DNA from: Woeseiaceae bacterium
GTDB lineage: Bacteria > Pseudomonadota > Gammaproteobacteria > Steroidobacterales > Woeseiaceae
NCBI GenBank assembly: GCA_028279985.1
Contig: JANQMR010000015.1
Span: 1 to 64,000 of the forward strand
Direction: 5' to 3'
Length of the DNA stretch: 64,000 nt
Each line of letters begins with the position of its first letter. The first letter of the stretch is position 1. Below the pieces are notes generated by a model. That model saw nothing but the letters and a program-made list of their open reading frames with translations, had not been told where the DNA came from and made no database searches. Of this stretch, positions 1 to 17,195 are shown one piece after another. Position numbers and translations under genes: made by a program.

Positions 1-213
1 GTCGTCATCGTTGGTTTCGTGGAGTTCGTAGTAGGTTGCGCCCGTCGAACTGCCCCAGGACAGTGTAAACGTGCCATCGTCGTCACTGTCCGGACCAAAT
101 GGCCCCGTCGGTGTGGGCGGCGGTGTCGCAAACACCGCTTCGGCTGACCACAACAGCAACACCGTAAGCGCGTGCAGGCAGAAAGACGCTCGACCAACGC
201 GTCGATGCTTCAT
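1..213 (-). CDS. Secreted protein with FN3-like start (5' end only)
   Basis: The reading frame starts at the ATG complementary to 211-213 and is still open at the left edge, so only the first 71 codons are visible. An AGGGAGG ribosome binding site lies just upstream of the ATG. Residues 1-30 look like a Sec signal peptide: basic start (MKHRR), a leucine-rich core, and a likely cleavage near VFA. A Pro-rich linker and a segment containing FTLSWGSSTGATYYEL follow, which resembles the first strands of a fibronectin type III domain. The protein is probably extracellular or cell-surface. The function cannot be judged because the rest is outside the window. Confidence 0.7.
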   Translation of the reverse strand, partial: MKHRRVGRASFCLHALTVLLLWSAEAVFATPPPTPTGPFGPDSDDDGTFTLSWGSSTGATYYELHETNDDD

Positions 214-598
214 GATCCCAGCCTCCCTAAGTTCCTTTTCGGGAAACTAAGTCAAACGAGTGGTGAAAGTCTAAGTATGCGCAAACATGACCATCAGAAG
301 TATTTCATTCCGCTGTTCAGTTTCTCGTCGAAGTATTTGGGAACAAAGGCCTTTTGCACGGCAGGAACAAGCCCGCATACAAGAGTTGCGAATTTGCGAC
401 CGTCGGTAACATTGCGTTCACGATCAGCCTGATCGTAACAAATGTTGCGGTCGTCCAACTCTGACGTGCGATATGGGTACATCGACCGAACTGTTGTCTA
501 TACGGTACAACACCCAAATCGCAGTTCTTCCAAGTGGTTGGGTTTAACTACCCGAACCTTGGGCTGTCACCGGGCGTTTATACCACTTCTGCGTTCAG
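214..598. other. Intergenic stretch without a convincing gene
   Basis: This 385-nt gap lies upstream of the minus-strand secreted protein and beyond the 3' end of the hemerythrin gene. It is visibly less GC-rich than its surroundings. Small open frames exist on the minus strand (for example 294-482) but lack a good ribosome binding site and overlap each other in different frames, so none is called. The only clear structure is the 17-bp palindrome listed separately. The promoter of the leftward gene should lie near 213-270. Confidence 0.5.
420..436. repeat. 17-bp perfect palindrome, core ATCAG-N-CTGAT
   Basis: The sequence ACGATCAG, one central base, then CTGATCGT is a perfect 8+1+8 palindrome. 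Its 11-bp core ATCAG-N-CTGAT recurs inside another perfect 17-bp palindrome at 45606-45622. A repressor or activator binding site is possible; no regulator is identified. Confidence 0.45.
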
Positions 599-1183
599 TC
601 AGCGCGCCATGGCCGCCTTAGCCTCGAATCTGACCCGCTCGAACAGCTTCGCAAACGGCGATTGCGCCTCACCGCCGAATACCGGATCGTTGGCGGAGAG
701 ATGTGATACGTCCACGCTGGCACTGCGGTCTTCGGCACACATCCTGTCGGCACGTTTGAACAGGTCGCTTTCCTCCCATTGCATGTGATCTCGCAGCCGG
801 CGGGTATATTCGTCGGCATCCCCGATCACCTGTTCCCGCTGCACGGCCGTGCCCGAGATGACGGCGTCGAAGTCGTTACGCAGCCTGATGCTGAGCACCG
901 CAATCTCCTCGTGGTCCGGTTCTATGCCGTCCAGGCCGTCGGCGAAGCCGCCGCCGCGGGACCGCATCTCGGCATAGACCAGGTCCTCCCGCGGATGGTG
1001 AATTGCGTCGGCGTATACCGCCATGTAGTGCATGATGTCGTGCAGGAGCTCGAAATCCGGTTCCTCGTCGTCCTCGACCCGCTGTATCTCATGTTCCATC
1101 AGCCGGAGCAGCATCGCCATGTTGCGGTGGTCGCTGCGGAGTGCGGCCAATACCTCCGATACTTTCGATACTTTCGCGGTCAT
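599..1183 (-). CDS. Hemerythrin-like (HHE) domain protein
   Basis: This 194-residue cytoplasmic protein has the spaced His/Glu pattern of hemerythrin HHE-cation-binding domains: DHRNMAML near the start, then HDIMHYMAVYADAIHHPRED, EPDHEEI and DHMQWEESDLF. These supply the ligands for a di-iron centre. Such proteins bind oxygen or nitric oxide, or sense redox and iron; which applies here is not visible. The start is the ATG complementary to 1181-1183, because GAGGA lies just upstream and homology begins there; the frame continues 5' to 1273 without family-like sequence. It is divergent from the PhoB-like regulator, so the 158-nt gap should hold both promoters. Confidence 0.82.
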   Translation of the reverse strand: MTAKVSKVSEVLAALRSDHRNMAMLLRLMEHEIQRVEDDEEPDFELLHDIMHYMAVYADAIHHPREDLVYAEMRSRGGGFADGLDGIEPDHEEIAVLSIRLRNDFDAVISGTAVQREQVIGDADEYTRRLRDHMQWEESDLFKRADRMCAEDRSASVDVSHLSANDPVFGGEAQSPFAKLFERVRFEAKAAMAR

Positions 1184-1341
1184 GCGGCGTCCTCGTGCCG
1201 GGCTGCTGCTCGGCTGTGAGCATACTGGATTCGGGATTGCTGCGTCGGTAATAATCGAGTAACAAAACCGCAATACATGCGTAAACCGGCTGTAAAGCGC
1301 CTGTGGTGTTCTGCTCCGTCAATCTCTTGCGAGCAGGTACG

Positions 1342-2034
1342 ATGACCTTGGCTTCGATTCTGGTTGTAGACTCCGACTCCGCGACCCGCGCGCGGATGGC
1401 GGCGGAGCTGCGTGAGCTCGGTCACGACGTGAGCGAGAGCGAGGATGCAGGCTCGGCGCTCAGGCTCGTCCGCCGCAAGAAGCCGGATCTGCTCGTCTGC
1501 GATTTCACCTTGCCGGACCTCGCCGGGGTCGAGTTGCTGAGCGACGTGCGCAGCAGCGACGAGCTCAAGTCGATGCGCGTGCTGATGACCTCGGCGCGCT
1601 CGGATTCCGACGACGTGGTCACGGCGCTCGAGTCCGGGGCCGACGATTTCATCGGCAAACCGATTAATACGCTGGAATTACGCGCCCGCGTCGGCGCCTG
1701 TCTCAGGCGGCCGGCCAACCTGTCCCAGGCCCGGGAGATCCGTGCCGGCGGCATTATGATCGACAACGTCGGCCATCGCGTTGTCGTGGACGGCAATTTC
1801 GTGTCCCTCGCGCCGCGCGAATACCGCCTGCTCCTGTTTCTGCTTTCCAACCAGGACCGGGTGTTCAGCCGCAAGCAATTGCTGGTCCACGTCTGGGATC
1901 GCGACGTTGCGGTCGGCGCCAGGACCGTGGATGTGCACATCCGCAGGCTGAGGGGCCTGCTGGAGCCTTTCGGCTACGATCGGTACCTGCAAACCGTCCG
2001 CGGCAGCGGCTACCGGTTTTCGCTCGAATCCTGA
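1342..2034 (+). CDS. PhoB-like response regulator with altered acidic pocket
   Basis: At 230 aa it matches the length of PhoB. Residues 1-120 are a receiver domain with phospho-acceptor Asp54 (VCDFTLPD), Ser84 at the switch Thr/Ser position and Lys106 (IGKP). Residues 135-230 are an OmpR/PhoB winged helix; the end (RTVDVHIRRLR, LQTVRGSGYRFS) is very close to E. coli PhoB. The acidic pair that binds Mg2+ (Glu9-Asp10 in PhoB) is here Asp10-Ser11, so one key acid is missing and phosphorylation may be weak or absent. No histidine kinase is adjacent. The start ATG follows AGCAGGT; an upstream in-frame start (1303) lacks family homology. The next genes downstream are preceded by a candidate Pho box, so this may be their local regulator (inference). 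Confidence 0.85.
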   Translation: MTLASILVVDSDSATRARMAAELRELGHDVSESEDAGSALRLVRRKKPDLLVCDFTLPDLAGVELLSDVRSSDELKSMRVLMTSARSDSDDVVTALESGADDFIGKPINTLELRARVGACLRRPANLSQAREIRAGGIMIDNVGHRVVVDGNFVSLAPREYRLLLFLLSNQDRVFSRKQLLVHVWDRDVAVGARTVDVHIRRLRGLLEPFGYDRYLQTVRGSGYRFSLES

Positions 2035-2056
2035 GGCGTTCCGTGCCGTAATGATT

Positions 2057-2074
2057 TCGTAATATTTTTGTCAC
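2057..2074 (+). promoter_or_regulatory. Candidate Pho box
   Basis: Two 7-bp half sites, TCGTAAT and TTGTCAC, are separated by 4 bp (ATTT). This is the 11-bp direct-repeat spacing of the enterobacterial Pho box (CTGTCAT-N4-CTGTCAC). By eye 4 of 7 and 6 of 7 bases match. It lies about 245 nt upstream of the lipoprotein ATG and just after the PhoB-like gene. The distance to the start codon is long, so a leader or a second promoter is possible. Confidence 0.35.
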
Positions 2075-2319
2075 ACGCCATCCACATAGCACCGATAGAG
2101 TTTCGTGCACGGTGGCCAGCGCCGGGGGAGCGCAAGCGCGAGTGGCATGGCGCATACCGGGCGTCACCAGGGAAATATCTACCAGGAAAACAACAACGAC
2201 GACCCGACAGCCGAGCTGGCCGAAACACTGAAACGTCACAATACGCCTCGTGCGAGGTGTGGCGAATCGCTTACACGAACACGAAATTGCTTACACGTTA
2301 TAAAGTCTGGAGAGGATTA

Positions 2320-4005
2320 ATGAATCGCAGCAAACTGTTCGCCGTCGTGGTTGCCGGTGGTTTCGTAGCCGCCTGCGACAGCGGGGACATCAACATCGCG
2401 CCGTCGACCACCGTGACGGATAGCAACAACACGACGATCGAAGGCGGCACCGGCGATCCGAATGCCAATTGTGCCTCTTACATCCGCGCCGGTCAGGAGA
2501 TCTCCGGCACGTCGGACGGCAACGGCAACTGCACCTACGGTTCGGCCTTCGTCGGGCCCAAGAACAACCTGACGGAAGACCTGTTCATTCGGGCGCTTCC
2601 GGACGGCGGTGCGCACATCTTCACGTCCAGCCTGTTCGTCGGGGAAACCTTCCGCACCCAGGCCGAGCTGGCCGCCGCCGGTATTTTCGAAGGCGGCGAC
2701 GGTCCGACGCTGACGATCGAGGCCGGCGCGACGCTGGCGTTCCAGACCAACAAGGATTTCGTCATCATCAACCGCGGCTCGCGCATCCTGGCCGACGGCC
2801 GTGCCGATGCGCCGATTACGTTCACGTCGGTGTCCGACGTGAACGGCACCGTATCGCCGGAGGACGTGCAGCAATGGGGCGGCATGGTCATCAACGGTTT
2901 CGGTGTCAGCAACAAGTGCGATTATGACGGCGTGCGTGGCGAGCCTGGATTTCAGTTACGGGCCGGCGAAGAGTGTTCGATCGAAGCCGAGGGCTCGGCC
3001 GGCGACGACGAATCGCAGTATGGCGGCGACAACGACGACGACGATTCGGGCATCATGCGCTACGTCGTCGTCAAGCACACCGGCGCCGAGGTGGGCAACG
3101 GCGACGAACTGAACGGTATTTCCTTCGGCGGCGTCGGCCGCAGCACGGTCATCGAGAACCTGCAGGTGTATTCGACCTACGACGACGGCATCGAGATGTT
3201 CGGCGGTTCGGTGAACTTCACGAACTTCGTTGCGCTATACGTTCGTGACGATTCGATCGACATGGACGAGGGCTACAATGGCACGATCACCAACGCGTTG
3301 GTCGTGCAGCAGGCAGAGGACGGCAACACCTGCATCGAATCGGACGGTATCGGCAGTTACGGCGACGCCTCTGAGGCGAAAAGGCAGGACATCATTGCCC
3401 GCGGTCTCAACAGCGCGCCGACGATCAACAGCCTGACCTGCATCATCTCCCCCAACCGGCCGGGTACGCACGACGCCGGCGCAGGCTGGCGCTTCCGCGA
3501 GGGTATCGAGCCGACGATCAACAATTCGATAATCGTATCCACGTACGCGGCCAACAACACCGACGACGACGACGACAACTACTGCCTGCGGATCGACAAC
3601 GAGGAAACGCAGAATGCAGCCATCGCCGGCGACCTGTCGCTGAACGGCGTAATCATCGCCTGCCAGGAGCCGGAAAAGGGTAACGCTTTCGGCACCTTTG
3701 CCGGCGAACGGGAATTCGCCGAATCCGGCAATGCCCAGTTCTCCGCCGAGGCGGCAGCGGCAAACGGTGCGGCGCTGGACCCGACCACGGGTAGTCTGGT
3801 GTTGCTCGAGGGCGCGCAGGGCATCTATTCGGTGCCGCTTGCCTCCGTCATCGTCGATGGCGCGGCGCCTACAGTGACGGCTGTCGAAGTGGATGGGGTG
3901 ACGCCCGACTTCCTGGGTGGTGTCAGCGCTGCTGACGACTGGACGGCCGGTTGGACCTACGGCATCGATCCGGCGAACCGCGGCCAGGCGTTGCCCTGGG
4001 AATAA
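2320..4005 (+). CDS. Large outer-membrane lipoprotein paired with TBDR
   Basis: This 561-residue lipoprotein has a lipobox VAAC with Cys19. The start ATG at 2320 follows AGAGGA; upstream in-frame codons are not protein-like. The mature part is rich in Asp, Gly and Asn and has repeated short beta-strand motifs, suggesting a beta-helix or similar all-beta fold. WGGMVINGF (about 188), a YGG..DDDDSG segment, NGISFGGVG and YDDGIEMFGGSVNFTN match a conserved family of surface lipoproteins often encoded next to TonB-dependent receptors in Proteobacteria and Bacteroidota (recalled from general knowledge). The acidic DDDD runs could bind calcium. It probably captures a substrate at the cell surface for the receptor encoded 117 nt downstream. 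The substrate is unknown; the Pho-box-like site upstream hints at a phosphorus compound. Confidence 0.72.
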   Translation: MNRSKLFAVVVAGGFVAACDSGDINIAPSTTVTDSNNTTIEGGTGDPNANCASYIRAGQEISGTSDGNGNCTYGSAFVGPKNNLTEDLFIRALPDGGAHIFTSSLFVGETFRTQAELAAAGIFEGGDGPTLTIEAGATLAFQTNKDFVIINRGSRILADGRADAPITFTSVSDVNGTVSPEDVQQWGGMVINGFGVSNKCDYDGVRGEPGFQLRAGEECSIEAEGSAGDDESQYGGDNDDDDSGIMRYVVVKHTGAEVGNGDELNGISFGGVGRSTVIENLQVYSTYDDGIEMFGGSVNFTNFVALYVRDDSIDMDEGYNGTITNALVVQQAEDGNTCIESDGIGSYGDASEAKRQDIIARGLNSAPTINSLTCIISPNRPGTHDAGAGWRFREGIEPTINNSIIVSTYAANNTDDDDDNYCLRIDNEETQNAAIAGDLSLNGVIIACQEPEKGNAFGTFAGEREFAESGNAQFSAEAAAANGAALDPTTGSLVLLEGAQGIYSVPLASVIVDGAAPTVTAVEVDGVTPDFLGGVSAADDWTAGWTYGIDPANRGQALPWE

Positions 4006-4030
4006 CGGGCAGCTCGCAAAGCCATGAGCA

Positions 4031-4067
4031 GGGCACCTGTTCCCGCAGGCGGAGCGGGTGCCCTTTT
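4031..4067 (+). terminator. Hairpin terminator between lipoprotein and TBDR
   Basis: GGGCACC (4031-4037) pairs with GGTGCCC (4057-4063) and is followed by TTTT. Because it sits inside the probable operon, it may act as a partial terminator that lowers receptor expression relative to the lipoprotein, or the receptor may have its own promoter. Confidence 0.6.
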
Positions 4068-4122
4068 GCGATTCAAGAGCGGCGGGTTCGTCTAAAGCCG
4101 CTCCGACAAGACAGGCTCAAGC

Positions 4123-6936
4123 ATGAAAACAAACGCTAACAGCAAGAAGTTGCCGCTGGCCTTCGCCATCGCGGCAGCGATGGCCGCCTGGCATCTCCCG
4201 GCAGTGGGGCAGGAAGCCGACGAAGACGCAGTTCCGTCACCGACGACCCCCACCGAGGAGGCCGAGATCGAGGAAGTCGTCGTACTCGGCCGGTTCATCA
4301 GCTCCAGCCAGCAGCTCGTCAACGAACGTATGAGCGATGCGTTCGCCACCGACCTCCTGGGCGCCGATACGATCAGTCGCCTCGGCGATTCCACGGTCGC
4401 CGCCGCGCTGCGGCGCGTACCGGGTTTGACCCTGGTTCAAGACAAGTTCGTCTATATCCGCGGATTGGGCGAGCGCTATTCGCAGACGACCTTGAACGGC
4501 GCTTTCATTCCGTCACCCGACCTGACGCGTAACGTGATTCCGCTGAACGTCTTTCCGACTTCGGTGGTCGAGTCGCTCAGGGTGCAGAAATCCTATTCGC
4601 CCGGGCTGTCCGCCAACTTCGGCGGCGGCGCGGTGGACATCCGCACCAAGGGGATTCCCGATGCCTTCACACTGCGCTTCGAGGCCGGCATTGGCGACAA
4701 CAGTGAAAACCCGGGCAGCGTCCTGACCTACAACGGCGGCGGCGACGACGATTTTGGCACCGACGACGGCTTCCGGGCCTTGCCGCAGTCCATTCGCGAC
4801 GGCATTGCCGAGTTCCAGGGTAATCCCAGCGTCAACCAGATCCTGACTTTCCTGCAGCGCCAGGACCCGTCCGCTGGTCTATTCGACGCCCAGACCGTCA
4901 ACCGGCAGTTTGCCCTGGCGCTGAACCGGGACGTGAGCGTACGCGAAACCAGCGCCGATCCCGATTACAAGCTGCGCGGCAGCATCGGTAACGCTTTTCA
5001 GTTCGGCAGCGACTGGGAAGCCGGGTTTGCGCTCGGCGCCTCGTACGAGACCGACTGGCGTTTCCGCCGCACCCGGACCGCGACCTTCGCGCTGCCGGAG
5101 GAACAAAACGGCATCCGCGAGGAAACGACGCGCAGCGTCAACATCTCGGGCACGGCGAACTTCGGGCTCAAGTTCCTGGCGGATCACGAGATCGAGACCA
5201 CGACGCTGTTCCTTCGGAACACGGACGATGAGACCGAGATCTTCGATTTCTTCAACGAGAACCGGCAGCGCTCGGGTAACCGCGGCTTTCGCGACTACCG
5301 GCTGGAGTTCGAAGAGCGCAACATGACCACCAACCAGATTCGCGGCACGCACTATCTCGGCACGGATACCCGCGAGCGGTTGCCTTTCGTAGGCACGCTG
5401 TTCGGCTGGCTGCCGACCGAGACGATGGTCGAGTGGTTCTATTCCGACTCCACCGCGGAAACCGACATCCCCAATCGCGTCATCGTTCGCTCCGACACCG
5501 AGACCGAGAACGGCGTCGTCCAGGACGAGTCCGTGCGTCTCGGCTCGTCCGCCGCCGACTATCGTTTCACCGAGCTCGAAGACCAGGTCGAGAACTATGG
5601 CTGGAGCGCAATGCTGCCGTTGGAGTTCGGCAACAACATTCTCGAGCTGAGCGGCGGCTACGATCATGCGCAAAAGGCGCGCACGTACGCGCAGACCGAA
5701 ATCAGCCTCGGTTATCTGGACGTATCCGACCTTTCGGTGCTGGAAGGCTCGCTGAGCGGCGTGTTTTCGGACGGGAATATCACGGCCAGGCTGCCGGACA
5801 ATCCGCTGACGGCCATCGACGAGTCGCGCAACTATGTGAACAACATCGTCTTCGACCGCCAGGGCGCGAATACCAACAGCTATATCGCCGCGACGATGAC
5901 CGACTCGATCTGGGGCAAGTTCGATTGGACGATTGCCGACACCTGGCGGATTGCCGCGGGTGCCCGCTGGGAGGACTACCGGCAGGCGTCCGTGCCGTGG
6001 AACCCGTGGGGTTTCTCGGAGGACGATCCGCAGGTGCGTATCGACGCCGAAGACGAGGACTTCGATCCGAGCGAGTTCGCGTTCAACGAGGACGAGATTT
6101 ACCCGGCGGCCGCCTTGACCTACATGGGAAGTTTCTGGGCGGACACCTTCCAGCTCCGGCTCGGCTACAGCGAGACGGCCGTGCGTCCGGATCTTCGCGA
6201 AATCACGTTCTCGAGTTACATCGATCCGATTACCGACACGCTGACCCAGGGTCAACCGGGCCTCAGGCCGTCGGAAGTCGAGAACATCGATCTGCGCGCC
6301 GAATGGTACTTCGCGAACAGCGACACGCTGTCGATCACGGTGTTCCAGAAGGACATCACCGACCCGATCGAATTCGTCGAGATCCCGGCTTCGGATACGA
6401 CCATCGCGCGCCGTATCCAGAACCTGGAGTCGGCCAGCATCCAGGGCATGGAGTTCGAGTTCCTGAAAGAGCTGGCCTTCCTCGGCGGCTATTGGGACAC
6501 ACTCTTCGTCCAGGGTAACTTCACCTATCAGTGGGATAAAGACCTCGAGGCCGGACCGAACGGTAGCGACCTGTTTTGCGCGCAGACCGACGCCGATCCG
6601 GCGCCGCCTTCCTGTGAGCTCTCGGGCGCCTCGGAGCTGGTTGCCAATTTCATGTTCGGCTACGACTCGCGCGACTCCAGGCACACGGCCTCGCTGATCC
6701 TGAATTACTTCGACGAGCGCCTGTTTTCCTTCGGCCGTTTCGGGCCCGACGCGATCGAGCAGCCGTTCACGTCGCTGGATTTCACGTATTTCTGGTATCC
6801 CACCGACCGGCTGACGCTCAAGGCCAAGGCGCAGAACGTCCTGAACGAGACCGTCTCGATCGAACGCGAAGGCGTTGTCGTCTTCGAGGAAGACCCGGGA
6901 ACCACGTACTCGCTCGCGCTGCAGTGGGGGTTCTAA
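4123..6936 (+). CDS. TonB-dependent outer-membrane receptor
   Basis: 937 aa. Residues 1-30 form a signal peptide. A TonB-box-like stretch IEEVVVLGRF is near residue 48, and a plug domain follows (DTISRLGDSTVAAALRRVPGL, YIRGLGERYSQTTLNG, NFGGGAVDIRT). The remainder is rich in alternating aromatic strands and ends in ALQWGF with a terminal Phe, as expected for a 22-strand barrel recognised by the BAM complex. It imports a ligand into the periplasm using TonB-ExbBD energy. The RGLGERY form of the plug is common in receptors paired with the large lipoprotein family encoded immediately upstream, so the two are best read as a capture-and-import pair. The ligand is unknown. The ribosome binding site is weak (ACAGGCTC). 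Confidence 0.9.
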   Translation: MKTNANSKKLPLAFAIAAAMAAWHLPAVGQEADEDAVPSPTTPTEEAEIEEVVVLGRFISSSQQLVNERMSDAFATDLLGADTISRLGDSTVAAALRRVPGLTLVQDKFVYIRGLGERYSQTTLNGAFIPSPDLTRNVIPLNVFPTSVVESLRVQKSYSPGLSANFGGGAVDIRTKGIPDAFTLRFEAGIGDNSENPGSVLTYNGGGDDDFGTDDGFRALPQSIRDGIAEFQGNPSVNQILTFLQRQDPSAGLFDAQTVNRQFALALNRDVSVRETSADPDYKLRGSIGNAFQFGSDWEAGFALGASYETDWRFRRTRTATFALPEEQNGIREETTRSVNISGTANFGLKFLADHEIETTTLFLRNTDDETEIFDFFNENRQRSGNRGFRDYRLEFEERNMTTNQIRGTHYLGTDTRERLPFVGTLFGWLPTETMVEWFYSDSTAETDIPNRVIVRSDTETENGVVQDESVRLGSSAADYRFTELEDQVENYGWSAMLPLEFGNNILELSGGYDHAQKARTYAQTEISLGYLDVSDLSVLEGSLSGVFSDGNITARLPDNPLTAIDESRNYVNNIVFDRQGANTNSYIAATMTDSIWGKFDWTIADTWRIAAGARWEDYRQASVPWNPWGFSEDDPQVRIDAEDEDFDPSEFAFNEDEIYPAAALTYMGSFWADTFQLRLGYSETAVRPDLREITFSSYIDPITDTLTQGQPGLRPSEVENIDLRAEWYFANSDTLSITVFQKDITDPIEFVEIPASDTTIARRIQNLESASIQGMEFEFLKELAFLGGYWDTLFVQGNFTYQWDKDLEAGPNGSDLFCAQTDADPAPPSCELSGASELVANFMFGYDSRDSRHTASLILNYFDERLFSFGRFGPDAIEQPFTSLDFTYFWYPTDRLTLKAKAQNVLNETVSIEREGVVVFEEDPGTTYSLALQWGF

Positions 6937-7012
6937 CCCCCCGGTAATCGGTCGCGCCCCGGTAACCGGAATCGACCTGGTGACCGGGCCGGCCAAGCCG
7001 GCGTATCATCGA

Positions 7013-7042
7013 AGGCCCTGCCGGTAACGGCGGGGCCTTTTT
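7013..7042 (+). terminator. Strong intrinsic terminator after TBDR
   Basis: AGGCCCTGCCG and CGGCGGGGCCT form an 11-bp stem with a GTAA tetraloop (7024-7027), followed by TTTTT. It ends the lipoprotein-TBDR transcription unit. Confidence 0.85.
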
Positions 7043-7194
7043 CGTTGACGTCGGAGGATGACCCGAATGCGTCTAAGGCTGGCCGTCGCCATTGCAGGTC
7101 GTATTGCCGCGCGGCCCGCTCGGCATCATGGCGGGCCGGGGCCGCTGAACGGTCCGCAGCCCCGGCCGGGTTGCTGGATAAAGCGCTCTCCCCG

Positions 7195-7977
7195 TTGCAG
7201 AATGACCGCCGTCACCGGTTCGTAACGCCGCCATTGTCGATTCTTCGCTACACGATCCCGAACGGCTTCACCGCATTGAGCCTCTTGCTCGGCGTCGCCT
7301 CGATTGCGACCGCGCAATTCGGCAGCCTGGAGCTCGCGGCGTGGATCATCGTTTGGTGCGGCCTGCTCGATACGATGGACGGGGTCGCGGCCCGGCTGCT
7401 CAAGGCAACCTCGGAGTTCGGCGCCGAATTCGATTCGATGGCCGATCTGGTCGCTTTCGGGGTCGCCCCGGCCGTGCTGGTGCTCAACGCCGGCCTCGAC
7501 CTGGCCGGCGTCGAATACGACACGGGTCAGTTCTACGTGCTCGCCGCGGCCTGCGGCGTATTCGTGCTGGCCGGCGCCATGCGGCTTGCGCGCTTCAACA
7601 TCGCAACGTCCAGGCCCAGGGCCGGCTGGTTCATCGGCGTGCCCATCACGGCGGCAGGTGGCGGCATGTTGTCGTCCACGGTCCTGGTCATGTCGTATCA
7701 TCCGGAGGTCGCCGCGTCGCTGCCGCTCAATCTGTACCTGCCGATACTGATGTTCGTGCTGGCCTTGCTGATGATCTCACGGCTGCGTTTCCCGAAAGCG
7801 ACCATCCGCAAAAGCCGTTTCATCAACGGCTTTCAAGCGGTTAACATCGCGCTGATCTTCTACTGTGCCATCACGCGATCCTGGCCCGAGTACCTGTTCG
7901 GCATTGCCGTTTTCCTGCTGATTGCGGGCGTGATCGCCGGCCGTATCGCCAAGGACACCGACGAAGTCCGGCGTTAG
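7195..7977 (+). CDS. pssA: CDP-diacylglycerol-serine O-phosphatidyltransferase
   Basis: A multi-spanning inner-membrane enzyme that makes phosphatidylserine, the precursor of phosphatidylethanolamine. The CDP-alcohol phosphatidyltransferase signature is complete near residues 59-81: D-x2-D-G-x2-A-R-x8-G-x3-D-x3-D (starting LLDTMDG, ending FDSMAD). Six to eight hydrophobic helices follow, and [13 protein letters not shown] before the signature is typical of the family. The start is uncertain. I place it at TTG 7195, giving 260 aa; the frame is open back to TTG 7045, but that extension is Arg/Ala-rich and looks non-coding, and no candidate has a good ribosome binding site. A GGAGGA site near 7053 precedes an ATG (7067) of a 52-aa ORF in another frame. 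It lies 8 nt before deoB. Confidence 0.82.
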
Positions 7978-7985
7978 GAGACCAC

Positions 7986-9185
7986 GTGACCAGGGTAATT
8001 GTCCTCGTGCTCGATTCTTTCGGCATCGGTGCCGCCAGGGACGCCGACCGCTTCGGCGACGCCGGCGCCGATACGCTGGGCAGCATCGCGCGCGTACGTG
8101 CCGCGGGCGAAAACGGGGCGCTAAGGCTGCCGAATCTCGCAAGCTTAGGCCTATACGAGGCGGGCAGGGAAAGCACGGGCCGCTACGCCGAGGGTGTCGA
8201 AACCGAGGTCGAGATCCGCGGTGCCTATGGATATGCCGAGGAGCTTTCCAGCGGCAAGGATACGCCCAGCGGTCACTGGGAGCTCGCCGGCGTGCCGGTA
8301 TTGTTCGAGTGGGGCTACTTCAAGAACGCGACCGACTCGTTCCCTCCCGCGTTGCTGAACAAACTCACCCAAAAAGCCGCATTACCCGGCATCCTGGGCA
8401 ACTGCCACGCATCCGGCACCGCCATCATCCACGAGCTCGGCGACGAACACGTCCGCACCGGCAAGCCGATCGTCTACACCTCCGCCGACAGCGTGTTGCA
8501 GATTGCCTGTCACGAGGAGGCGTTCGGCCTGGAGCGCCTGTACGCCTTGTGCGACATCGCACGCGAGCTGGTCGATGAGTACCGGATCGGTCGCGTCATC
8601 GCGCGGCCTTTCGTCGGCGATTCCGCCGATACTTACGTCCGGACCGGCAACCGCCGCGATCTGACGACGCCGCCACCGGCGCCGACGGTGCTCGACAAGC
8701 TCGTCGAGGCCGGCGGCGAGGTCATCAGCATCGGCAAGATCGCCGACATCTACGCCCATCGCGGCATCACGCAAAAGATCAAGGCAACCGGCAACGCCGC
8801 GTTGTTCGACGCCACCCTGGATGCGCTGGCCGAAGCCCCCGAGCGGTCGATCGTCTTCACGAACTTCGTCGATTTCGACATGCTCTACGGTCACCGCCGC
8901 GACGTCGAGGGTTATGCCGCGGCGCTCGAGTATTTCGACGAACGGTTGCCCGAGTTGCTCAGGCGAATGCGGGACGAGGACGTGCTGTTCCTCACGGCCG
9001 ATCACGGTTGCGATCCCACCTGGCCGGGCACCGATCACACCCGCGAACATGTTCCGGTGCTGGCCTATGGACGCCGCGTGAGTCCCGGTTCGCTGGGTAA
9101 GCGTAAAACCTTTGCCGACATCGGCCAGAGTATCGCGACGCTCTTCGAGCTCACGCCGATGGACTACGGCAGGAGCTTCCTATGA
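7986..9185 (+). CDS. deoB: Phosphopentomutase
   Basis: 399 aa, the usual length of DeoB. It interconverts (deoxy)ribose 1-phosphate and 5-phosphate, linking nucleoside phosphorolysis (DeoA/DeoD in this window) with DeoC. Alkaline-phosphatase-superfamily metal sites are visible: [14 protein letters not shown] at the start, [16 protein letters not shown], and near the C-terminus [19 protein letters not shown], which carries the Asp/His ligands of the two Mn2+ ions. The GTG start is supported by AGGAGA about 5 nt upstream. It is co-directional with pssA (8-nt gap), so they may be co-transcribed even though the functions are unrelated. The other deo genes are in separate units at 14 kb and 22.7 kb. 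Confidence 0.95.
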
Positions 9186-9307
9186 ACCCGATTGCAGTGA
9201 GGATCCGACCGCAAAGGTTCCCACGGTCCGGTAGAGCAAGGCACGGGTAGCGGAGCGGCCCGACCCGTAGGAAGCCGCGGGGGCTGCCCCGAAAAACTCA
9301 AAGTCAA

Positions 9308-11320
9308 TCAGGCAAAGGAGGCACGGTGCCGCCTTCGCCGCGCCAGCCCTATCAGGGCGAGCAAACCCAGCACCCAGGGACCGGCTGCACCGCCACCGCT
9401 GTCGTCGCCGGTGCTCGCCGCATTGACGCTCACGCTGAGGTCCAGCGAATTGTTGGACGGGTCCAGGTCCGTCTGCGCGGCGGCAGTCGACAGCGAGAGC
9501 GCTTGCAGGCCCACCGTCGTGCCTGTCAGGCGAAGCTCCAGCGCCGACGACGACTGCGCCGCGAGCCGCGTCGCCTCGCAGTCGACGGCCGTCGCGGAGA
9601 CGTTACAGCTACCCGCCGACCAGCTCGCGCCGTTCGCGCGCAGTCCGGCATCCAGCGTAACGTCGATCGACACGCCGGTCGCGTCCAGCGTCGATTCGTT
9701 GCCGAGCGACACGTTGATCGTCACGGTCCGGTCCACCGTTACTTCGGAAGTAGCAGGCCCCGCGAGCGTCAATTCGACCGCCGGCTCGACGTCGAGCTGA
9801 ACGGACTGCCGATCGTTCCCGGCGTTGCCGTCGTCGCTTGCGCTGACCGTGGCATTGAAGGACGCGGTGCCGACGTCCACCGTCATGACCGTCACGGTTA
9901 CCGTATTCGTCGCGCCGCCTTCGACGTTGCCCAGCGAACAATCGACGAGACCGGCGCCGTCGGTGCAGGTCCCGACCGAGCTTGCGGCAGACGTCAATGA
10001 CACACCGTTCGGAATCGAGACCTCGACGGCGACGTCGGATGCGGCCAGCGTGCCGCTGTTCTCCACGTCGAAGCCGATCGTCGCCGAGTTGCCGAGCAAA
10101 ACGCTCGGCGCCGGGTCCGGCGTCGTGATACTCATGTCCACCGCCGGCAGCGGCGTGATACAGGCGCCGGCGCGGGCGATGTCGTCCGACATCTGGTCGA
10201 TGCTGCATTGGGAGAAGGTCGTGTTCGACGGACTGAGCGACGTCGCCATGATGAAGGTCGACGGCGTGGACTCGCAGGGCCCCGAAACGCCGTCGTGCGG
10301 CGCGCCGAAGTTGTGGCCGATCTCGTGCGCGGCAATCAGGCTATCGAAGGTCGTGCTGCGATTCCCTTCGCTCAAGCCCGCACCGAAAAAGCTGTGGCAC
10401 AGCGTGCCGACGAAGGCAATACCGACCGTGTTTCCGTCGAGATCGCGGCCCGTGTAGAGATGCGTCAGTCCCAGGCTCCTCTGCCCGGCAGTGTTTTGCC
10501 GATAGCCGGCGAGCTCGTCGAGCAGCGCGCCGGCGTCGCCGGTGTCGGAGAACGGATCGTCGGTATCGCCGAAGGTCTCGATCAGCGGAACGTTGATCTG
10601 TATGCCGAGTTGCTCGCTGAAGATGCCGTCCACGTTGTTCAGCCGGTTGACGATCGCGCTCTCGGCATTACTGCCCTTGCTGCTCGTGAACTCGAAGTCG
10701 GCGACGGCGCCCATATCGATCTGCGATACGGCGCCCTCGGCGCGGGCCACCCGTACCGACAGCTCGTCGATCAGCGCGGCGTACGCTTTGTCGCCGCTGC
10801 CGTGCAAGCTGCCGGCGCCGCAGCTCATCGTACCGGGCGCTATGACGACGTCCGACAGCCGGTAGATCACCGGAGCGCCGCTTGCGACGATGCTGTCGCC
10901 CGGAGACTCGATGGCATAAAGCTCCGCGCCGTCCCAGACCAAACCGGCGGGCCGGCCGTCGGTGAGTACGATGCGTGTCCAGGAGCCGGCAACGCCGGCA
11001 ATGTTGCCGCGGTAAGCCGCGATACCCGCCGGCAAGTCCTCGCGAGCCGTATCGGAGAGCAGCCGGGAATTCGGCGCGAGCTCGAGCTCGAAGCGCCGTC
11101 CCAGTGCATCGAAACGCATCGTCGCGGCCCCGGCGCTCGCGGCCGATCGCGTTTTCTGGTGACCGCCGGATTCGGTCGACGAAAGAGCCGCAGCCTCGGA
11201 GATCGTCAAAGCCTCGAGCGGTTCGTAATGCGTCAGGGAGATACCGTCGGCCGCGTTCGAAAAACCGGGCACCGCAAGCGCCAGCAGCATGCCGGCAAGA
11301 CTGCTTCTGAAGACCGTCAT
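9308..11320 (-). CDS. Secreted reprolysin-like metalloprotease, GlyGly-CTERM
   Basis: 670 aa with a signal peptide (about 1-23). Residues 332-343 read HEIGHNFGAPHD, the metzincin zinc site in the adamalysin/reprolysin form (HExxHxxGxxHD). The Met-turn is probably STFIMATS about 25 residues later, followed by FSQCSIDQM as in ADAM-type enzymes. Two DUF11-like beta-sandwich repeats follow (DVENSGTLAASDVAVEVSIP; NVSLGNESTLDATGVSIDV). The C-terminus has a Gly-rich stretch (SGGGAAG), a hydrophobic helix and RRRRHR, the GlyGly-CTERM sorting signal processed by rhombosortase in type II secretion systems. It probably degrades extracellular protein. GGAGGG precedes the ATG. It is transcribed toward deoB, and the 122 nt between them hold no clear terminator. 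Confidence 0.88.
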   Translation of the reverse strand: MTVFRSSLAGMLLALAVPGFSNAADGISLTHYEPLEALTISEAAALSSTESGGHQKTRSAASAGAATMRFDALGRRFELELAPNSRLLSDTAREDLPAGIAAYRGNIAGVAGSWTRIVLTDGRPAGLVWDGAELYAIESPGDSIVASGAPVIYRLSDVVIAPGTMSCGAGSLHGSGDKAYAALIDELSVRVARAEGAVSQIDMGAVADFEFTSSKGSNAESAIVNRLNNVDGIFSEQLGIQINVPLIETFGDTDDPFSDTGDAGALLDELAGYRQNTAGQRSLGLTHLYTGRDLDGNTVGIAFVGTLCHSFFGAGLSEGNRSTTFDSLIAAHEIGHNFGAPHDGVSGPCESTPSTFIMATSLSPSNTTFSQCSIDQMSDDIARAGACITPLPAVDMSITTPDPAPSVLLGNSATIGFDVENSGTLAASDVAVEVSIPNGVSLTSAASSVGTCTDGAGLVDCSLGNVEGGATNTVTVTVMTVDVGTASFNATVSASDDGNAGNDRQSVQLDVEPAVELTLAGPATSEVTVDRTVTINVSLGNESTLDATGVSIDVTLDAGLRANGASWSAGSCNVSATAVDCEATRLAAQSSSALELRLTGTTVGLQALSLSTAAAQTDLDPSNNSLDLSVSVNAASTGDDSGGGAAGPWVLGLLALIGLARRRRHRASFA

Positions 11321-11439
11321 AACGCCCTCCGCGGACGGGCTTTCCGCCGCTATTCATAGCTAAGCAAACGGATACCGCCGCGGCAAGGCAATCTCTGTCG
11401 GCTCCTGGCGACAAATGCGCGAGAAGTGTGTCGCAGTTC

Positions 11440-11850
11440 TCAGTTCGGGCGGTTTTGCCGGGCCAGCGCGCAGGGGTCGCGCCGGCCGCTCTCGATCATG
11501 CGCCGGTGCTCGCCGGTGGTGAGCAGGTAGGCGGCGGAGCCGCTTTCCCGATGCACGTACAGCGGTTCCAGTGTACGACCGTCGTTCGCCGCGAGCTCGA
11601 GCCGTTTGCCGTCCCGGGAATAACGGCCGTAAATCGGATAATCCGGAAACGGATCGATCCGATTGCCGCGAGAGTCGATTTCCACCGCATCGGTGAACCG
11701 GTCCCAGACGAATTCCCCACCGTCGAGCGTGATGACGTCACCCTCGAAGGCGGGGCAATCCGGCCGGTAAACGCCGTCGATCGAGGCCGCGCAACCGCCG
11801 AGACTCGCGGCGAGCAGGCAAGCGGCAGCCGCGACGAAACGTCCGTTCAT
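11440..11850 (-). CDS. Small lipoprotein of unknown function
   Basis: 136 aa. The N-terminus is a lipoprotein signal with lipobox LGGC (Cys20). The mature part has short repeated strand-like stretches (VITLDGGEFVWDRF, YPIYGRYSRDGKRLEL, LEPLYVHRESGSAAYLLTTGEH) that look like a small beta-barrel or lipocalin-type fold reporting a threshold property; this is only a visual impression. Two conserved-looking Cys (CPAFEG and DPCALARQ) may form a disulfide. The start ATG overlaps the stop of the upstream thioesterase gene by 4 nt (ATGA), so the two are translationally coupled. Confidence 0.68.
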   Translation of the reverse strand: MNGRFVAAAACLLAASLGGCAASIDGVYRPDCPAFEGDVITLDGGEFVWDRFTDAVEIDSRGNRIDPFPDYPIYGRYSRDGKRLELAANDGRTLEPLYVHRESGSAAYLLTTGEHRRMIESGRRDPCALARQNRPN

Positions 11851-12305
11851 GCGCGCCAGCTAGGCGGCACGCGCACCGCGACCACCTCGCCTTTGGCCGT
11901 CATCTTGCCGTCGGACGAGACCGTACACTCGAGCACGGTTTTTCTCTCGGTACTGTCGATCACCGTAGCGCGAAGCTCGACCGGCCGGTCGATCGGCGTG
12001 GGTTTGACGTAGCTCACCGTCAGGCTGCCGGTGACGCACCAGATCGGCTCACCCTCGCCGATCTCCCGGCCTTCGCGCCGGTAATGCGCCGCGATGGCCG
12101 TGCTGACGCAGTGGCAGTCGATCAGGCTTGCGATCGTGCCGCCGTAGACGAACTGCTCGGGACCGGCGCATTGTTCCGGGCGCGGCTGGTAACGGCAGGT
12201 GGAGACCGCGCCGTCCCAGTAGCTCTTGATCCGCATGCCGGCCGGATTCTCGGGCCCGCAGCCGTAACAATGATTGTCCGGGATGCTGTCCTGTATCGCT
12301 TTCAT
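11847..12305 (-). CDS. Hotdog-fold thioesterase (PaaI/4HBT superfamily)
   Basis: 152 aa, single domain. The sequence CYGCGPENPAGMRIKSYW near the start and EQFVYGGTIASLIDCHCVSTA are typical of the small acyl-CoA thioesterases annotated as PaaI-family; the G-G-T-I-A-S-L-I-D stretch carries the usual catalytic Asp/Glu helix. VTGSLTVSYVKPTPIDRPVELRA is the central hotdog beta-sheet. It would hydrolyse an acyl-CoA thioester of unknown chain. It is co-directional and tightly packed between the amidohydrolase gene (adjacent at 12306) and the small lipoprotein gene (4-nt overlap), giving a three-gene unit. Confidence 0.82.
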   Translation of the reverse strand: MKAIQDSIPDNHCYGCGPENPAGMRIKSYWDGAVSTCRYQPRPEQCAGPEQFVYGGTIASLIDCHCVSTAIAAHYRREGREIGEGEPIWCVTGSLTVSYVKPTPIDRPVELRATVIDSTERKTVLECTVSSDGKMTAKGEVVAVRVPPSWRA

Positions 12306-13763
12306 TCACCGACCCCGGTTTCTCGACGCCAGCGACCGCTTTATCTCGGCGGCCAGCGCTTCGGCTTCGCGGCGCACGCGTTCGGTGTCTATTGTCAGGA
12401 TCTTGCGATCGTGCATCAGCAACTGCCCGTCCACGATCACGTTGACGACGTCCTGCTCGTCGGTGACATAAACGAGATGTGACACGACGTCGTAAGTGGG
12501 GACGTGATGGACGTCGTCGAAGGCAACCTGAATGAGGTCTGCGCGTTTTCCGGGTTCGAGCGCGCCGATGCCGTCGCCGAGACCGATGGCTTCCGCACCG
12601 CCGCGGGTGGCCATCGTAAGGACGGTCATCGCCGGCAGTTGCTCGGGGTCCATGCTGTCGACTTTTTGCAGGAAGGCGGCAAGACGCATCTCTTCCCACA
12701 GATCGAGATCGTTGTTGCTCGCCGCGCCGTCGGTGCCGATGCCGATGAGTACGCCGGCCTCGAGCATTTTTGCCACCGGCGAGATGCCGGAGGCGATTTT
12801 CATGTTCGAGGTCGGGTTGTGGATCACGCCGATGCGGCGCTCGACCAGTATCGGGATCTCGGCGTCGGTCGGCCAGACGACGTGCGCGGCAATCGTCGGC
12901 CCTTCGAAAAAGCCGATCTCGTCCAGCATCTCGATGCTGGTCTTGCCGTAGGTGTCTTTCGAATACTGTACCTCGAACGGCGACTCCGAGAGATGGATGC
13001 TGATCGGCACGCCGTGTTCGAGCGCCGCGCGCCGCGTGGCCGCAAGCTGCGCGGCATCGAGGGTGTAATTGGCGTGCGGACCGTAGATCGGGGTGATGCG
13101 CGGATGCCGGTTTTTCCAGCGCTCGATATACCCTTCACCCTTGTCCAGGGAGTCGGCGGCGCTCTCCGCGTCGGGGCTGCGCTGGTCGATGACCGTTGTC
13201 GAGATCAGCGCGCGCAGGCCGCAGCGTTCGACCACCTCGGCGATCGTGTCCGGGAAATAGTACATGTCGACGAAGGTCGTCGTGCCGCCGCGGATCATTT
13301 CCCAGCAGGCGAGTTCGGTGCCGATCCGCACGAACTCCGGGTCCACGAACTCGACCTCGGCCGGGAAGATGTAGTTGTTCAGCCAGTCCATCAGCGCGAG
13401 ATCGTCGGCGACGCCGCGCAACAGGGTCATCGCCGCGTGCGAATGGCCGTTGATCAGGCCCGGCATCAGGACGCGCCGCTCGCCGTGCAGCGTCCGGCTC
13501 GCCCGGTATTCGGCGTCGATGGCGGCCGCCGTGCCGACGGCCAGAATGAGGCCGTCGTCGATCGCCACCGCGCCGCCGCCGATGATCCGGCCCGACGCAT
13601 CCATCGTTACGACCGTGTCGCCGTAGACGATCCAGTCGATCGTGCCGTCGTCTTCGATTGCCGCGGTCTCCGCCGGCGGACGCTCGCCGTCGCAGGCAGT
13701 CAGGCCCAGAAGTACCAGCGCCGGCAGCAAGCCGGCGCGAGAGGGGGTTCTCGGAGTGATCAT
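12306..13763 (-). CDS. Lipoprotein-type amidohydrolase (MTA/SAH deaminase group)
   Basis: A 485-aa metal-dependent hydrolase. Family motifs: GHSHAAMTLLRGVADDL (HxH metal ligands), HLSESPFEV (third His), HVVWPTDAE, and IGTDGAASNNDLDLWEEM (catalytic Asp). These match S-adenosylhomocysteine / 5'-methylthioadenosine deaminases and close relatives, which deaminate adenosine-type nucleosides. The unusual feature is the N-terminus: from the ATG at 13763 it reads as a lipoprotein signal with lipobox LTAC (Cys24), so the enzyme should be in the periplasm or outer membrane, while known MtaD-type enzymes are cytoplasmic. An in-frame TTG/ATG extension to 13820 exists, but the signal peptide argues for 13763. 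No strong ribosome binding site is seen. The substrate could be adenosine, MTA, SAH or another amine. Confidence 0.8.
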   Translation of the reverse strand: MITPRTPSRAGLLPALVLLGLTACDGERPPAETAAIEDDGTIDWIVYGDTVVTMDASGRIIGGGAVAIDDGLILAVGTAAAIDAEYRASRTLHGERRVLMPGLINGHSHAAMTLLRGVADDLALMDWLNNYIFPAEVEFVDPEFVRIGTELACWEMIRGGTTTFVDMYYFPDTIAEVVERCGLRALISTTVIDQRSPDAESAADSLDKGEGYIERWKNRHPRITPIYGPHANYTLDAAQLAATRRAALEHGVPISIHLSESPFEVQYSKDTYGKTSIEMLDEIGFFEGPTIAAHVVWPTDAEIPILVERRIGVIHNPTSNMKIASGISPVAKMLEAGVLIGIGTDGAASNNDLDLWEEMRLAAFLQKVDSMDPEQLPAMTVLTMATRGGAEAIGLGDGIGALEPGKRADLIQVAFDDVHHVPTYDVVSHLVYVTDEQDVVNVIVDGQLLMHDRKILTIDTERVRREAEALAAEIKRSLASRNRGR

Positions 13764-13975
13764 GGCGCCGTAGTCTAACACCGGCTCGAGATCGACTATT
13801 GCCGTTCGTCGGCCATGCAACGTAGAGTTGAGTCCATGAGTCGTGAACCTGCCGCAACGGACCGCCTGTCGCCGTTCGACGCCCCTGCCGGTGGCAGGCC
13901 GGGCCGGGAGATGCTCGAGACCTGCCGCGGCGGCGTTATACTGATACTGCTGCGCGGCTTCGTGGACTGAGAGCC

Positions 13976-15295: not shown

Positions 15296-15371
15296 CCGCC
15301 GCGTCGAAACGCCGGGCGCGGGCTTTGCGGTATCCTAGCGCGAAAGAACAACAACACCTCATGGGGGAATC

Positions 15372-16598
15372 ATGCCGGACAGACTGATCGGGCTCCTCGG
15401 AGTCCTGGTAATCCTTGCGATAGCCGTTCTGTTATCCGCCAATCGCCGCGCGGTTAACCTGCGTGTCGTCGGTGCCGCGTTCGCCCTGCAGATCGCGGTT
15501 GCCGTTTTCGTGTTGTATTTCGAGGCCGGCCGGAATGTCATCGATGCGATGTCCGACGGCGTGCTGGCCGTGGTCAATTTCTCCAGGGACGGCATCGACA
15601 TGGTGTTCGGTCCGCTGGCGGACGCGGACATCATCGGCTTCAGTTTTGCCGTCAATGTGCTGCCGATCATCATCTTTTTCTCGGCTCTGATGTCCGTGCT
15701 CTACCACCTGCGGATCATGGAATGGGTGGTCAAGCTCCTCGGCGGCGCCTTGCACCGGATCATCGGCACCGGTGCCGTCGAGTCGATGAACGCAGCCGCA
15801 AACATTTTCGTGGGCCAGACCGAGGCGCCGCTGGTCGTGAGGCCCTATCTGAAGCGCCTGACCGAGCCGCAGATGTTTACAATCATGACTTCGGGCCTGG
15901 CTTCGGTGGCCGGCACCGTGCTGGCCGCCTACATGCTGATGGGCGCCGAGCTCAAATACCTCCTGGCCGCGAGTTTCATGGCCGCACCGGGCGGCCTGCT
16001 GATGGCCAAGCTGATCATGCCCGACCCGAAGACCGAAGGCGGCATCCGGCGCGAGAAACCGGTCATGGAACGCAGCCGCCACGAGAACGTGATACTGGCG
16101 GCGGCCGTCGGCGCCAGCGACGGTCTCAGGCTCGCGGTCAACATCGGTGCGATGCTGATCGCCTTCGTGGCGTTGATTGCCTTGTTCAACGGCCTGGTCG
16201 GCGGTGTGTTCGGCCTGTTCGGCATCGAAGGCATCACCCTGCAACTGATCCTCGGCAAGCTCTTCGCACCGCTGATGTGGACGCTCGGCATCCCCTGGGC
16301 GGAGGCCCAGGCCGCGGGCTCGCTGTTCGGCGAGAAGCTGATCCTGAACGAGTTCGTCGCCTTTTCGCACCTGAACGAATACCTGGCCGGCATGAGCGAG
16401 CGCACGATCGCGATCTCGACGTTCATGTTGTGCGGCTTTGCCAACCTGTCGTCGATCGCGATATTGCTCGGCGGGCTGGGCGTGCTGGTCCCGGAGAAAC
16501 GCGAGCTGATTGCGCGTTTCGGCCTGCGTGCCGTTGCCGCCGGCTCGCTGTCCAACCTGATGAGCGCCGCGCTGGCGGGCCTGTTGTTGACATTCTGA
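15372..16598 (+). CDS. nupC: Concentrative nucleoside transporter (NupC/CNT)
   Basis: 408 aa inner-membrane symporter that imports nucleosides with H+ or Na+. The CNT pattern is clear: an N-terminal three-helix part, then [46 protein letters not shown] (the conserved QTEAPL substrate loop), [26 protein letters not shown], and near the end [10 protein letters not shown] with [29 protein letters not shown] about 6 nt upstream of the ATG is a good ribosome binding site. It follows deoA and converges on cdd, forming a pyrimidine-nucleoside uptake and breakdown set. Confidence 0.95.
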
Positions 16599-17137: not shown

Positions 17138-17195
17138 TGCTTCGTGCCTCGAGGCTGGCCTGCCGTTCCAACTATAGCCCGGATGGCAACCGACC

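Follow-up and report, generated by a model that had tools for sequence, protein, structure and literature searches.

A conserved Pho-box-like array before a probable ElpS-type lipoprotein–TonB-dependent receptor pair in a Woeseiaceae bacterium

Introduction

Gene pairs for a lipoprotein and a TonB-dependent receptor (TBDR) that are linked to phosphate starvation are already known from other bacteria, and it is with these that a locus of a Woeseiaceae bacterium of marine type (assembly GCA_028279985.1) is compared here. The window, i.e., the whole stretch of DNA that was analysed, comprises positions 1 to 64,000 of contig JANQMR010000015.1, at the start of this 107-kb contig in a genome of 4.1 Mb and 40 contigs. 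It contains a lipoprotein gene (2320–4005, + strand) followed by a TBDR gene (4123–6936, +), and between the lipoprotein gene and the gene of a PhoB-like response regulator (RR; 1342–2034, +) lies a candidate Pho box (2057–2074, +).

In Caulobacter crescentus, ElpS (CC0170) is produced by phosphate-starved cells and anchored at their surface, and its release is aided by the type II secretion system (T2SS); the purified protein is reported to lack phosphatase activity, although its overproduction raises alkaline phosphatase activity (PMC2996285). The same source describes the elpS–cc0171–gsp layout in Caulobacter and others, and the PhoB regulon of Caulobacter includes TBDRs and the T2SS (PMC11208175). 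In Flavobacterium johnsoniae, the related lipoproteins FI, FII and FIII, which share 31–36% identity with ElpS over about half of the length and model like polygalacturonase, are strongly induced by depletion of inorganic phosphate (Pi); FI, the most abundant exoprotein, and FII adjoin TonB-dependent transporters (TBDTs) (PMC8115612). Deletion of Fjoh_3856 left colony spreading unaffected (PMC7807042). When Caulobacter and Flavobacterium are starved of phosphate, lipoproteins of the ElpS type figure prominently at their surface (PMC2996285, PMC8115612).

The locus in the window is probably a Pho-regulon pair of the ElpS/Cc0171 kind, in which the lipoprotein would be displayed at the surface, a phosphorus-containing ligand captured and imported, and expression tuned by the RR. 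This assignment is the most likely one because homologs of the lipoprotein occur in the elpS–cc0171 layout or have phoBR, PstS and a TonB motor as neighbours. In the window as in Caulobacter, the lipoprotein gene immediately precedes that of the TBDR and there is a link to phosphate starvation, and homologs of the window lipoprotein show the lipoprotein–TBDR–gsp order described for Caulobacter (PMC2996285). The window differs in that no T2SS genes were found in its 64 kb (no GspD, GspE or GspF match over 70 bits) and that it has, instead, an upstream orphan PhoB-like regulator and an intervening box. A dedicated copy of a PhoB-like regulator appears to be the new feature of this otherwise known kind of pair, and no report of such a regulator dedicated to an ElpS-type pair was found in the literature searched. 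The FI and FII systems of F. johnsoniae, with the TBDTs Fjoh_3857 and Fjoh_0545 (PUSIII and PUSIV), have in common with the window a polygalacturonase-like lipoprotein beside a TBDT; unlike in the window, the receptor gene comes first, and the comparison is based on the published description (PMC8115612).

The Pho box

A Pho-box-like direct repeat with 11-bp spacing had been proposed at 2057–2074 in an initial annotation made from the sequence, and this repeat was not only recovered but found to be part of a longer run. The PhoB matrix used for scoring was independent of the window, being derived from 43 distinct E. coli PhoB motifs obtained by ChIP-chip and given in Table 2 of a published report (PMC3465305). 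With this matrix, 2057–2074 reached 19.7 bits and ranked first among the 127,966 positions scored over the two strands of the 64 kb, followed by 17.5 bits at 18030–18047 (−) and 16.7 bits at 1257–1274 (+). The site is made up of the half-sites TCGTAAT and TTGTCAC, separated by attt, with starts 11 bp apart, and a further half-site, CCGTAAT (2046–2052, +), precedes them after the spacer gatt, giving a triple at 11-bp pitch (2046–2074). Between 1742 and 2319, three 7-mers reach 23.1 when set at pitch 11, versus at most 13.1 at pitches 8–10 and 12–14. On its 3′ side, CATCCAC (2079–2085, +) occupies a degenerate fourth 11-bp register, followed after 10 bp by a −10-like hexamer, TAGAGT (2096–2101, +), which lies 21 bp past half-site 3. 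In E. coli, the −10 element is found about 10 bp past the last half-site.

The site starts 22 bp past the stop codon of the RR gene (2032–2034) and 263 bp upstream of the ATG of the lipoprotein gene (2320). In the whole genome, the triple, as a pattern written post hoc, had one exact match, the window site itself, and one with a mismatch, whereas the pattern YYKTMAYN4YTGTCAY had four exact matches, including the window site, versus two for a backwards control pattern. For comparison, the best score in the 18 kb around the canonical phoB gene was 17.9 bits, with 14.5 bits before phoB itself, and that in the 17 kb around the second pst set of the genome (G000:C21) was 16.5 bits, 36 bp before pstS. 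All bits were computed with the base composition of the window, and, because A+T-rich genomes score higher in this way, ranks within a locus are safer than bits.

The match at 18030–18047 (−) was rejected as a promoter box, as it lies at the 3′ end of a gene and out of promoter position; the gene in question (18042–19148, −) encodes a lipoprotein-like member of the endonuclease/exonuclease/phosphatase family. On another contig, a near-perfect Pho box (TTGTCACAAAACTGTCAC; G000:C24:56655–56672, locus L146) is located about 350 bp before a gene for a TIG/RHS-repeat protein; it is one of the four exact matches of YYKTMAYN4YTGTCAY, of which two more adjoin unassigned genes, and these three were not taken up as further members of the system.

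Conservation of the box

The box is conserved upstream of close orthologous lipoprotein genes, whereas no such conservation was found upstream of distant ones. Runs of three 7-mers at pitches 8–14 were sought in the 350 bp upstream of each gene, with 300 dinucleotide shuffles each, in 62 close orthologs (the window, L014–L066 and L085–L105) and 16 distant ones (L067–L084), identical upstream stretches being counted once. Omitted were L033 and L082, with fewer than 300 bases upstream, L065, L099, L106, L107 and L115, without a start, and L083, without a lipoprotein match; the loci were divided into close and distant by their numbers once the identities were known, L074, labelled Pseudomonadales, being counted as distant. 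The controls were all 207 available ATG open reading frames of at least 250 codons from the same loci, with lipoprotein and RR genes left out and TBDR genes kept, and with 200 shuffles each.

Pitch 11 was the best in 44 of the 62 close orthologs, with p ≤ 0.05 in 46 and p ≤ 0.01 in 33, compared with 37, 15 and 5 of the 207 control genes, respectively; the preference for pitch 11 over the control genes has a Fisher probability of 1.5e-14, which ignores kinship. The ortholog set is partly redundant through kinship, and its p-values are therefore not independent. Where an RR gene (at least 60% identity) is present, the triple was found without exception, in 15 orthologs at p ≤ 0.013 with pitch 11 as the best, and the other 47 close orthologs reached p ≤ 0.05 in 31 cases and had pitch 11 as the best in 29. 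Among the 43 orthologs with pitch 11 as the best and p ≤ 0.05, a TAnnnT hexamer lay 21 bp past the third 7-mer in 26, 10 bp past it in six and at any other offset in at most two, the offset of 21 being equal to one 11-bp register plus 10 bp. By eye, CCAC or CCAT stood at the fourth register in many of the close orthologs. A search with a two-part regular expression caught few of the ortholog sites, because their middle half-site often reads CnTTAAT, and was given up in favor of the matrix scan. In 17 further loci (5 from plasmids and 12 others), the best Pho match within 600 bp upstream of the lipoprotein gene was the highest-ranking one of its locus in 8 and one of the five highest in 12; for L128–L139, the start was taken as the farthest upstream ATG or GTG of the frame.

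That the repeat arose by chance is excluded in practice by this conservation: the first rank among 127,966 positions and the fixed spacing to a −10-like hexamer in 26 of 43 orthologs outweigh the one observation that could be set on the side of chance, which is that similar runs occur before a few other genes (the 5 of 207 at p ≤ 0.01). The box very likely functions in Pho control of the pair, as judged from the sequence; this is strongly supported by the combination of its top matrix rank, the conserved run with promoter geometry and the presence of phoB near homologs. Read in the same way, the pair would be Pho-controlled in several gammaproteobacterial groups.

The neighbouring regulator

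The box had been described as standing right after a PhoB-like gene, which is correct as to its position and to the likeness, although the encoded protein falls below the cut-off of the PhoB family. The RR (PF00486, PF00072), an orphan regulator of the OmpR/PhoB family with an atypical receiver, has PhoB (TIGR02154) as its best NCBIfam match, and it shares with canonical PhoB the receiver and winged-helix domains, the DNA-reading stretch and the grouping in the tree; it differs in the missed cut-off, the loss of D10, the want of an adjoining PhoR and its long branch. The canonical PhoB of the genome is encoded on another contig (G000:C8:21894) and passes the cut-off with 328.8 bits. After its gene come phoR (TIGR02966, 383 bits) and, a few genes farther on, those for a PstS-like protein, which is below its own cut-off, and pstC, pstA and pstB. 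In a tree of 34 sequences, 15 RR orthologs formed a single clade (100/100) on a long branch within a PhoB-containing group (100/98), and ten further OmpR-type regulators of the genome fell outside it.

The receiver of the RR has D-S-D where PhoB has E-D-E. Of the residues which we take to form the PhoB receiver pocket (E9, D10, D53 and K105), the position of D10 is held by S, P, G or A in all 15 RR orthologs, with acidic residues flanking it on both sides, while D53 is retained in 14 and K105 in 15. The exception at D53 is the ortholog at L017:5162–5851, in which a glutamate replaces the phosphorylation-site aspartate and could mimic the phosphorylated state. The stretch RTVDVH(I/V)RRLR, presumably the recognition helix, is retained in the RR orthologs with small changes and is the same in the canonical PhoB of the genome. 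Before the RR gene itself, an array of five 7-mers at 11-bp pitch was read by eye (CGGTAAT, GAGTAAC, CCGCAAT, GCGTAAA and CTGTAAA; 1246–1296, +), which includes the third-best matrix score of the window, at 1257–1274, and in all 15 RR orthologs the best upstream triple of the RR gene was at pitch 11 with p ≤ 0.01 (mononucleotide shuffles).

The distribution of the RR follows that of the lipoprotein. Among 61 genomes of the family, it was present (at least 66% identity) in 12, all of which were among the 23 lipoprotein carriers (hypergeometric probability 7.8e-7, ignoring phylogeny); the two genes were adjacent in 11 of the 12, and on separate contigs in G001. A weaker relative of the RR (51%) also lies near the lipoprotein gene in G053. 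From these sequence comparisons, the RR appears to be an orphan PhoB paralog tied to the lipoprotein locus, and a role as its local controller is attractive.

The proposal of local control made in the initial annotation is thus upheld as far as the tie to the locus in 12 of 12 genomes goes, and weakened by the orthologs that keep the box without an adjoining RR. In L018, L055, L092, L095 and L100, the box run is kept with no close RR gene in the available stretch, and in L061 it is kept with canonical phoB–phoR in place of the RR. Because of these orthologs, canonical PhoB would be at least as likely as the RR to act on the box. Carried further, canonical PhoB and PhoR alone would control the box and the RR would be present by descent, serving other genes or another signal; this is a possibility of some weight, less probable than not, to which the canonical phoB–phoR with a pst set at G000:C8 adds, and against which stand the restriction of the RR to lipoprotein-carrying genomes (12 of 12), its retention of RTVDVH(I/V)RRLR and its own conserved 7-mer array. 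Canonical and altered-receiver paralogs in one cell, with one conserved array that either could read, would allow the specificity of PhoB to be tested in a natural setting. About 140 bp upstream of position 6001 in L018, before the box, a stretch reading GYRFSLKS-stop resembles the C-terminal end of the RR, where no RR match was obtained; it is possibly the remnant of a lost regulator.

The lipoprotein

The lipoprotein of 561 residues starts at the ATG at 2320, from which its orthologs align; a TTG start at 2068, which would place part of the box inside the gene, found no support in the orthologs. Its lipobox, VAA|C19, is matched by a loose pattern in 58 of 59 close relatives. The cysteine is followed by a conserved CDSGDINI, and CxSGDINI or variants stand just past the cysteine in 54 of 58 close members by pattern, the linker after the motif being variable (2374–2400 in the window); of the four misses, three (L036, L051 and L053) have closely similar motifs, and the fourth, L041, is due to a match at an earlier cysteine. 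The motif may direct the export of the lipoprotein to the surface, where we infer it to be displayed.

The AlphaFold2 model, made with an alignment of 52 sequences (pLDDT 89.6, pTM 0.89), predicts a right-handed parallel beta-helix. VIA-align placed it next to Vag8 (Z 22.5, rmsd 3.2, 273 aligned residues), the mannuronan epimerase AlgE4 (Z 18.5, rmsd 3.6, 285 aligned) and polygalacturonase (Z 17.9, rmsd 3.6, 270 aligned), at 9–16% identity among the 50 matches listed; since this is a repeat fold, such Z values show architecture, not kinship. Foldseek gave no match at E ≤ 0.001 with the model, and the PDB held no relative by sequence, with the profile giving weak profilin-like matches only (E 0.2–0.9). 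Neither a Pfam family at E ≤ 5 nor an NCBIfam family near its cut-off was found for the protein. The absence of a SusD-family Pfam match at E ≤ 5, together with the predicted beta-helix, sets it apart from the SusCD-like PusCD of Flavobacterium, described as a Pi-inducible surface lipoprotein with its TonB-dependent transporter (PMC8115612).

Among the residues invariant in 52 lipoprotein sequences are D288, D289 and E292, D310, D311 and D314, E340 and D342, R393, and W545, and the acidic ones are spaced in a way that points to an acidic stripe, a possible metal-ion site. Catalysis of the GH28 type was set aside, although the acidic pairs are invariant, and a carbohydrate reading drawn from the fold alone was rejected. 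Multi-domain homologs of 956–1362 residues, with two or three copies of the domain per chain, occur in Alteromonas (L125:7381–11451), Pseudoalteromonas (L124:7342–11430) and Indioceanicola (L126:10276–13146).

The fold bears on two other explanations of the pair. That it is an ordinary pectin-type carbohydrate uptake system with an incidental box would fit a polygalacturonase- or tailspike-like lipoprotein next to a TIGR01782-like TBDR, and is very improbable given the conserved Pho runs, the Pho neighbours and the induction of the published relatives by phosphate starvation (PMC2996285, PMC8115612). That the lipoprotein is a released enzyme or a phosphatase activator, as proposed for ElpS, which would free phosphate outside the cell and form no capture-import complex with the TBDR, is unlikely without being far-fetched: the phosphatase effect of ElpS overproduction and the dependence of ElpS release on the T2SS, cited above, speak for it, as do the invariant acidic residues on a fold common among polysaccharide-active enzymes and the lack of a nearby TBDR gene for 9 of 17 distant homologs. 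It is opposed by the reported inactivity of purified ElpS (PMC2996285), by the lack of T2SS matches in the window and by the neighbouring TBDR, present in 75 of the 77 close loci.

The receptor and its genomic settings

The TBDR, which resembles the TonB-Xanth-Caul class, matched PF07715 and PF00593 over their cut-offs and TIGR01782 with 222 bits, missing the cut-off of 310; receptors of the TIGR01782-like class include known sugar transporters. A search of the PDB with the single sequence gave no match, and one with a profile matched only the plug region of the colicin I receptor. Its gene starts 117 bp past the lipoprotein gene, and a TBDR match lay within 700 bp of the lipoprotein in the 75 of 77 close loci, in a set in which some records are present twice; in the remaining two, L031 and L102, the sequence breaks off within the lipoprotein gene or just past it. 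The phylum was sampled with 299 genomes, of which 30, including that of the window, had a lipoprotein match at E ≤ 1e-20, and in the 12 loci taken from 12 of the 29 other matching genomes the TBDR was adjacent throughout, standing first in L132 and L133. The lipoprotein–TBDR pair proposed initially is supported by the lipobox, the predicted fold and this adjacency.

The homologs lie in settings that recall the phosphate response. On plasmids of Sphingomonas parapaucimobilis and Indioceanicola profundi, the genes of the lipoprotein, the TBDR and the T2SS (gsp) are consecutive, and GspD, GspE and GspF follow the pair in L134, L137 and L139; the alphaproteobacterial homologs in this elpS–TBDR–gsp layout match the window lipoprotein by sequence. 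On plasmid pBGP9 of Alteromonas macleodii, the order is phoB–phoR–PstS-like–2OG-Fe(II) oxygenase–lipoprotein–TBDR–DUF3450–ExbB–ExbB–ExbD–TonB, the lipoprotein having three copies of the domain, and the top three Pho-matrix scores of the 19 kb lie before the lipoprotein (26.9 bits), phoB (25.9 bits) and the motor genes (23.6 bits). Motor, lipoprotein and TBDR genes also stand together on Pseudoalteromonas plasmids, a DUF3450–ExbB–ExbD–TonB motor lies beside the pair in L130, phoBR beside it in L129 and pst-like genes near the lipoprotein in L032. A PhoB over the TIGR02154 cut-off was found near the lipoprotein in L036, L061, L062, L063 and L129, and one over the NF053854 cut-off in L077 and L081, while the PhoB of L067 fails. 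In the two Bacteroidales loci L077 and L081, the TBDR, the lipoprotein and this PhoB share one stretch, to be compared with FII of F. johnsoniae, which lies inside a phoBR cluster (PMC8115612); the Bacteroidales and Cytophagaceae homologs have about 25–36% identity to the window lipoprotein over part of its length only. The presence of PstS and a TonB motor beside homologs in some genomes suggests that the pair takes up its ligand for phosphorus rather than for carbon.

In the Woeseiaceae genome itself, a run of DUF3450–ExbB–ExbB–TonB–TPR genes, a motor of the kind seen beside the homologs, comes directly before the second pst set, pstSCAB (L112:7301–16138, on G000:C21), in which pstS has its own Pho-like box (CTGTCACAAAACGTTCAC; L112:11131–11148, 16.5 bits). 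Beside this set, at L112:2571–6064, are CRISPR-Cas genes (Cas1 and the CT1975 family). Among the distant homologs, the TBDR gene lies at 0.75 kb in L084, at 1.5 kb in L081 and about 5.6 kb past the lipoprotein gene in L069, L070, L071 and L073, with ExbB and ExbD matches in between in the first three of these four.

Proposed mechanism

Under phosphate starvation, a PhoB-type protein would bind the run of 7-mers at 2046–2085 and recruit RNA polymerase to the hexamer at 2096–2101, leading to production of the lipoprotein and probably of the TBDR as well. On the outer membrane, the long beta-helix with its invariant acidic cluster might then capture, or help to process, a phosphorus-containing ligand, which is a plausible substrate of the pair; its import by the TBDR is our best guess, with energy from TonB and ExbB that likely come from the motor encoded directly before pstSCAB. 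The RR would bind the same class of site, controlling its own gene and tuning the lipoprotein–TBDR locus. In a bolder and rather improbable version, the RR of this genus, with its altered phosphorylation pocket, would have become a private, self-amplifying switch of the pair that needs no PhoR, and the TBDR, run by the pst-linked motor, would pass phosphate or one of its esters on to PstS, so that phosphorus would be actively transported across both membranes.

Several observations weigh against the ElpS-type, Pho-controlled pair. No run at p ≤ 0.05 was found in 16 of the 62 close orthologs, six of them from Microbulbifer (L028, L035, L037, L038, L040, L042, L043, L044, L045, L046, L047, L048, L049, L050, L056 and L059), and the distant homologs had none beyond chance (p ≤ 0.05 in 3 of 16, pitch 11 the best in 4 of 16). 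In L124 (Pseudoalteromonas), L133, L134, L137 and L139, the upstream Pho match ranked only 6th to 16th of its locus, and three of these, L134, L137 and L139, are the ones that carry T2SS genes. No sigma-70-type promoter was seen at the box, and the RR matched TIGR02154 with 226.8 bits, under the cut-off of 296.2. A TBDR lies within about 400 bp in only 6 of the 17 distant homologs and is absent from the available stretch in 5 of the 17, including L074. A second DUF3450 gene over the cut-off is present on another contig, and, given this gene and the position of the pstS box past the motor genes, the motor and pst genes do not necessarily form a single unit. Finally, the likeness to ElpS itself was judged from layout, homologs and the published description.

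Surrounding genes

Upstream of the RR gene and divergent from it is a gene for a hemerythrin-domain protein (599–1183, −; PF01814, E 2.7e-11), which is, with the lipoprotein gene, one of the two neighbours of the RR gene and adjoins it also in several relatives, e.g., L017, L025 and L087, according to tblastn synteny. Seven genes in the region 599–11320 were tested and none encodes a kinase, and no Rfam family was found in positions 1–20000 of the window. Between 1200 and 7100, terminator searches gave 5 matches versus 4.5 expected, the lone one on the + strand lying inside the RR gene. Past the TBDR gene are genes for a CDP-diacylglycerol–serine phosphatidyltransferase and a phosphopentomutase, and a gene at 9308–11320 (−) encodes an M12B reprolysin-like metalloprotease that has DUF11 repeats and weakly matches a GlyGly-CTERM family.

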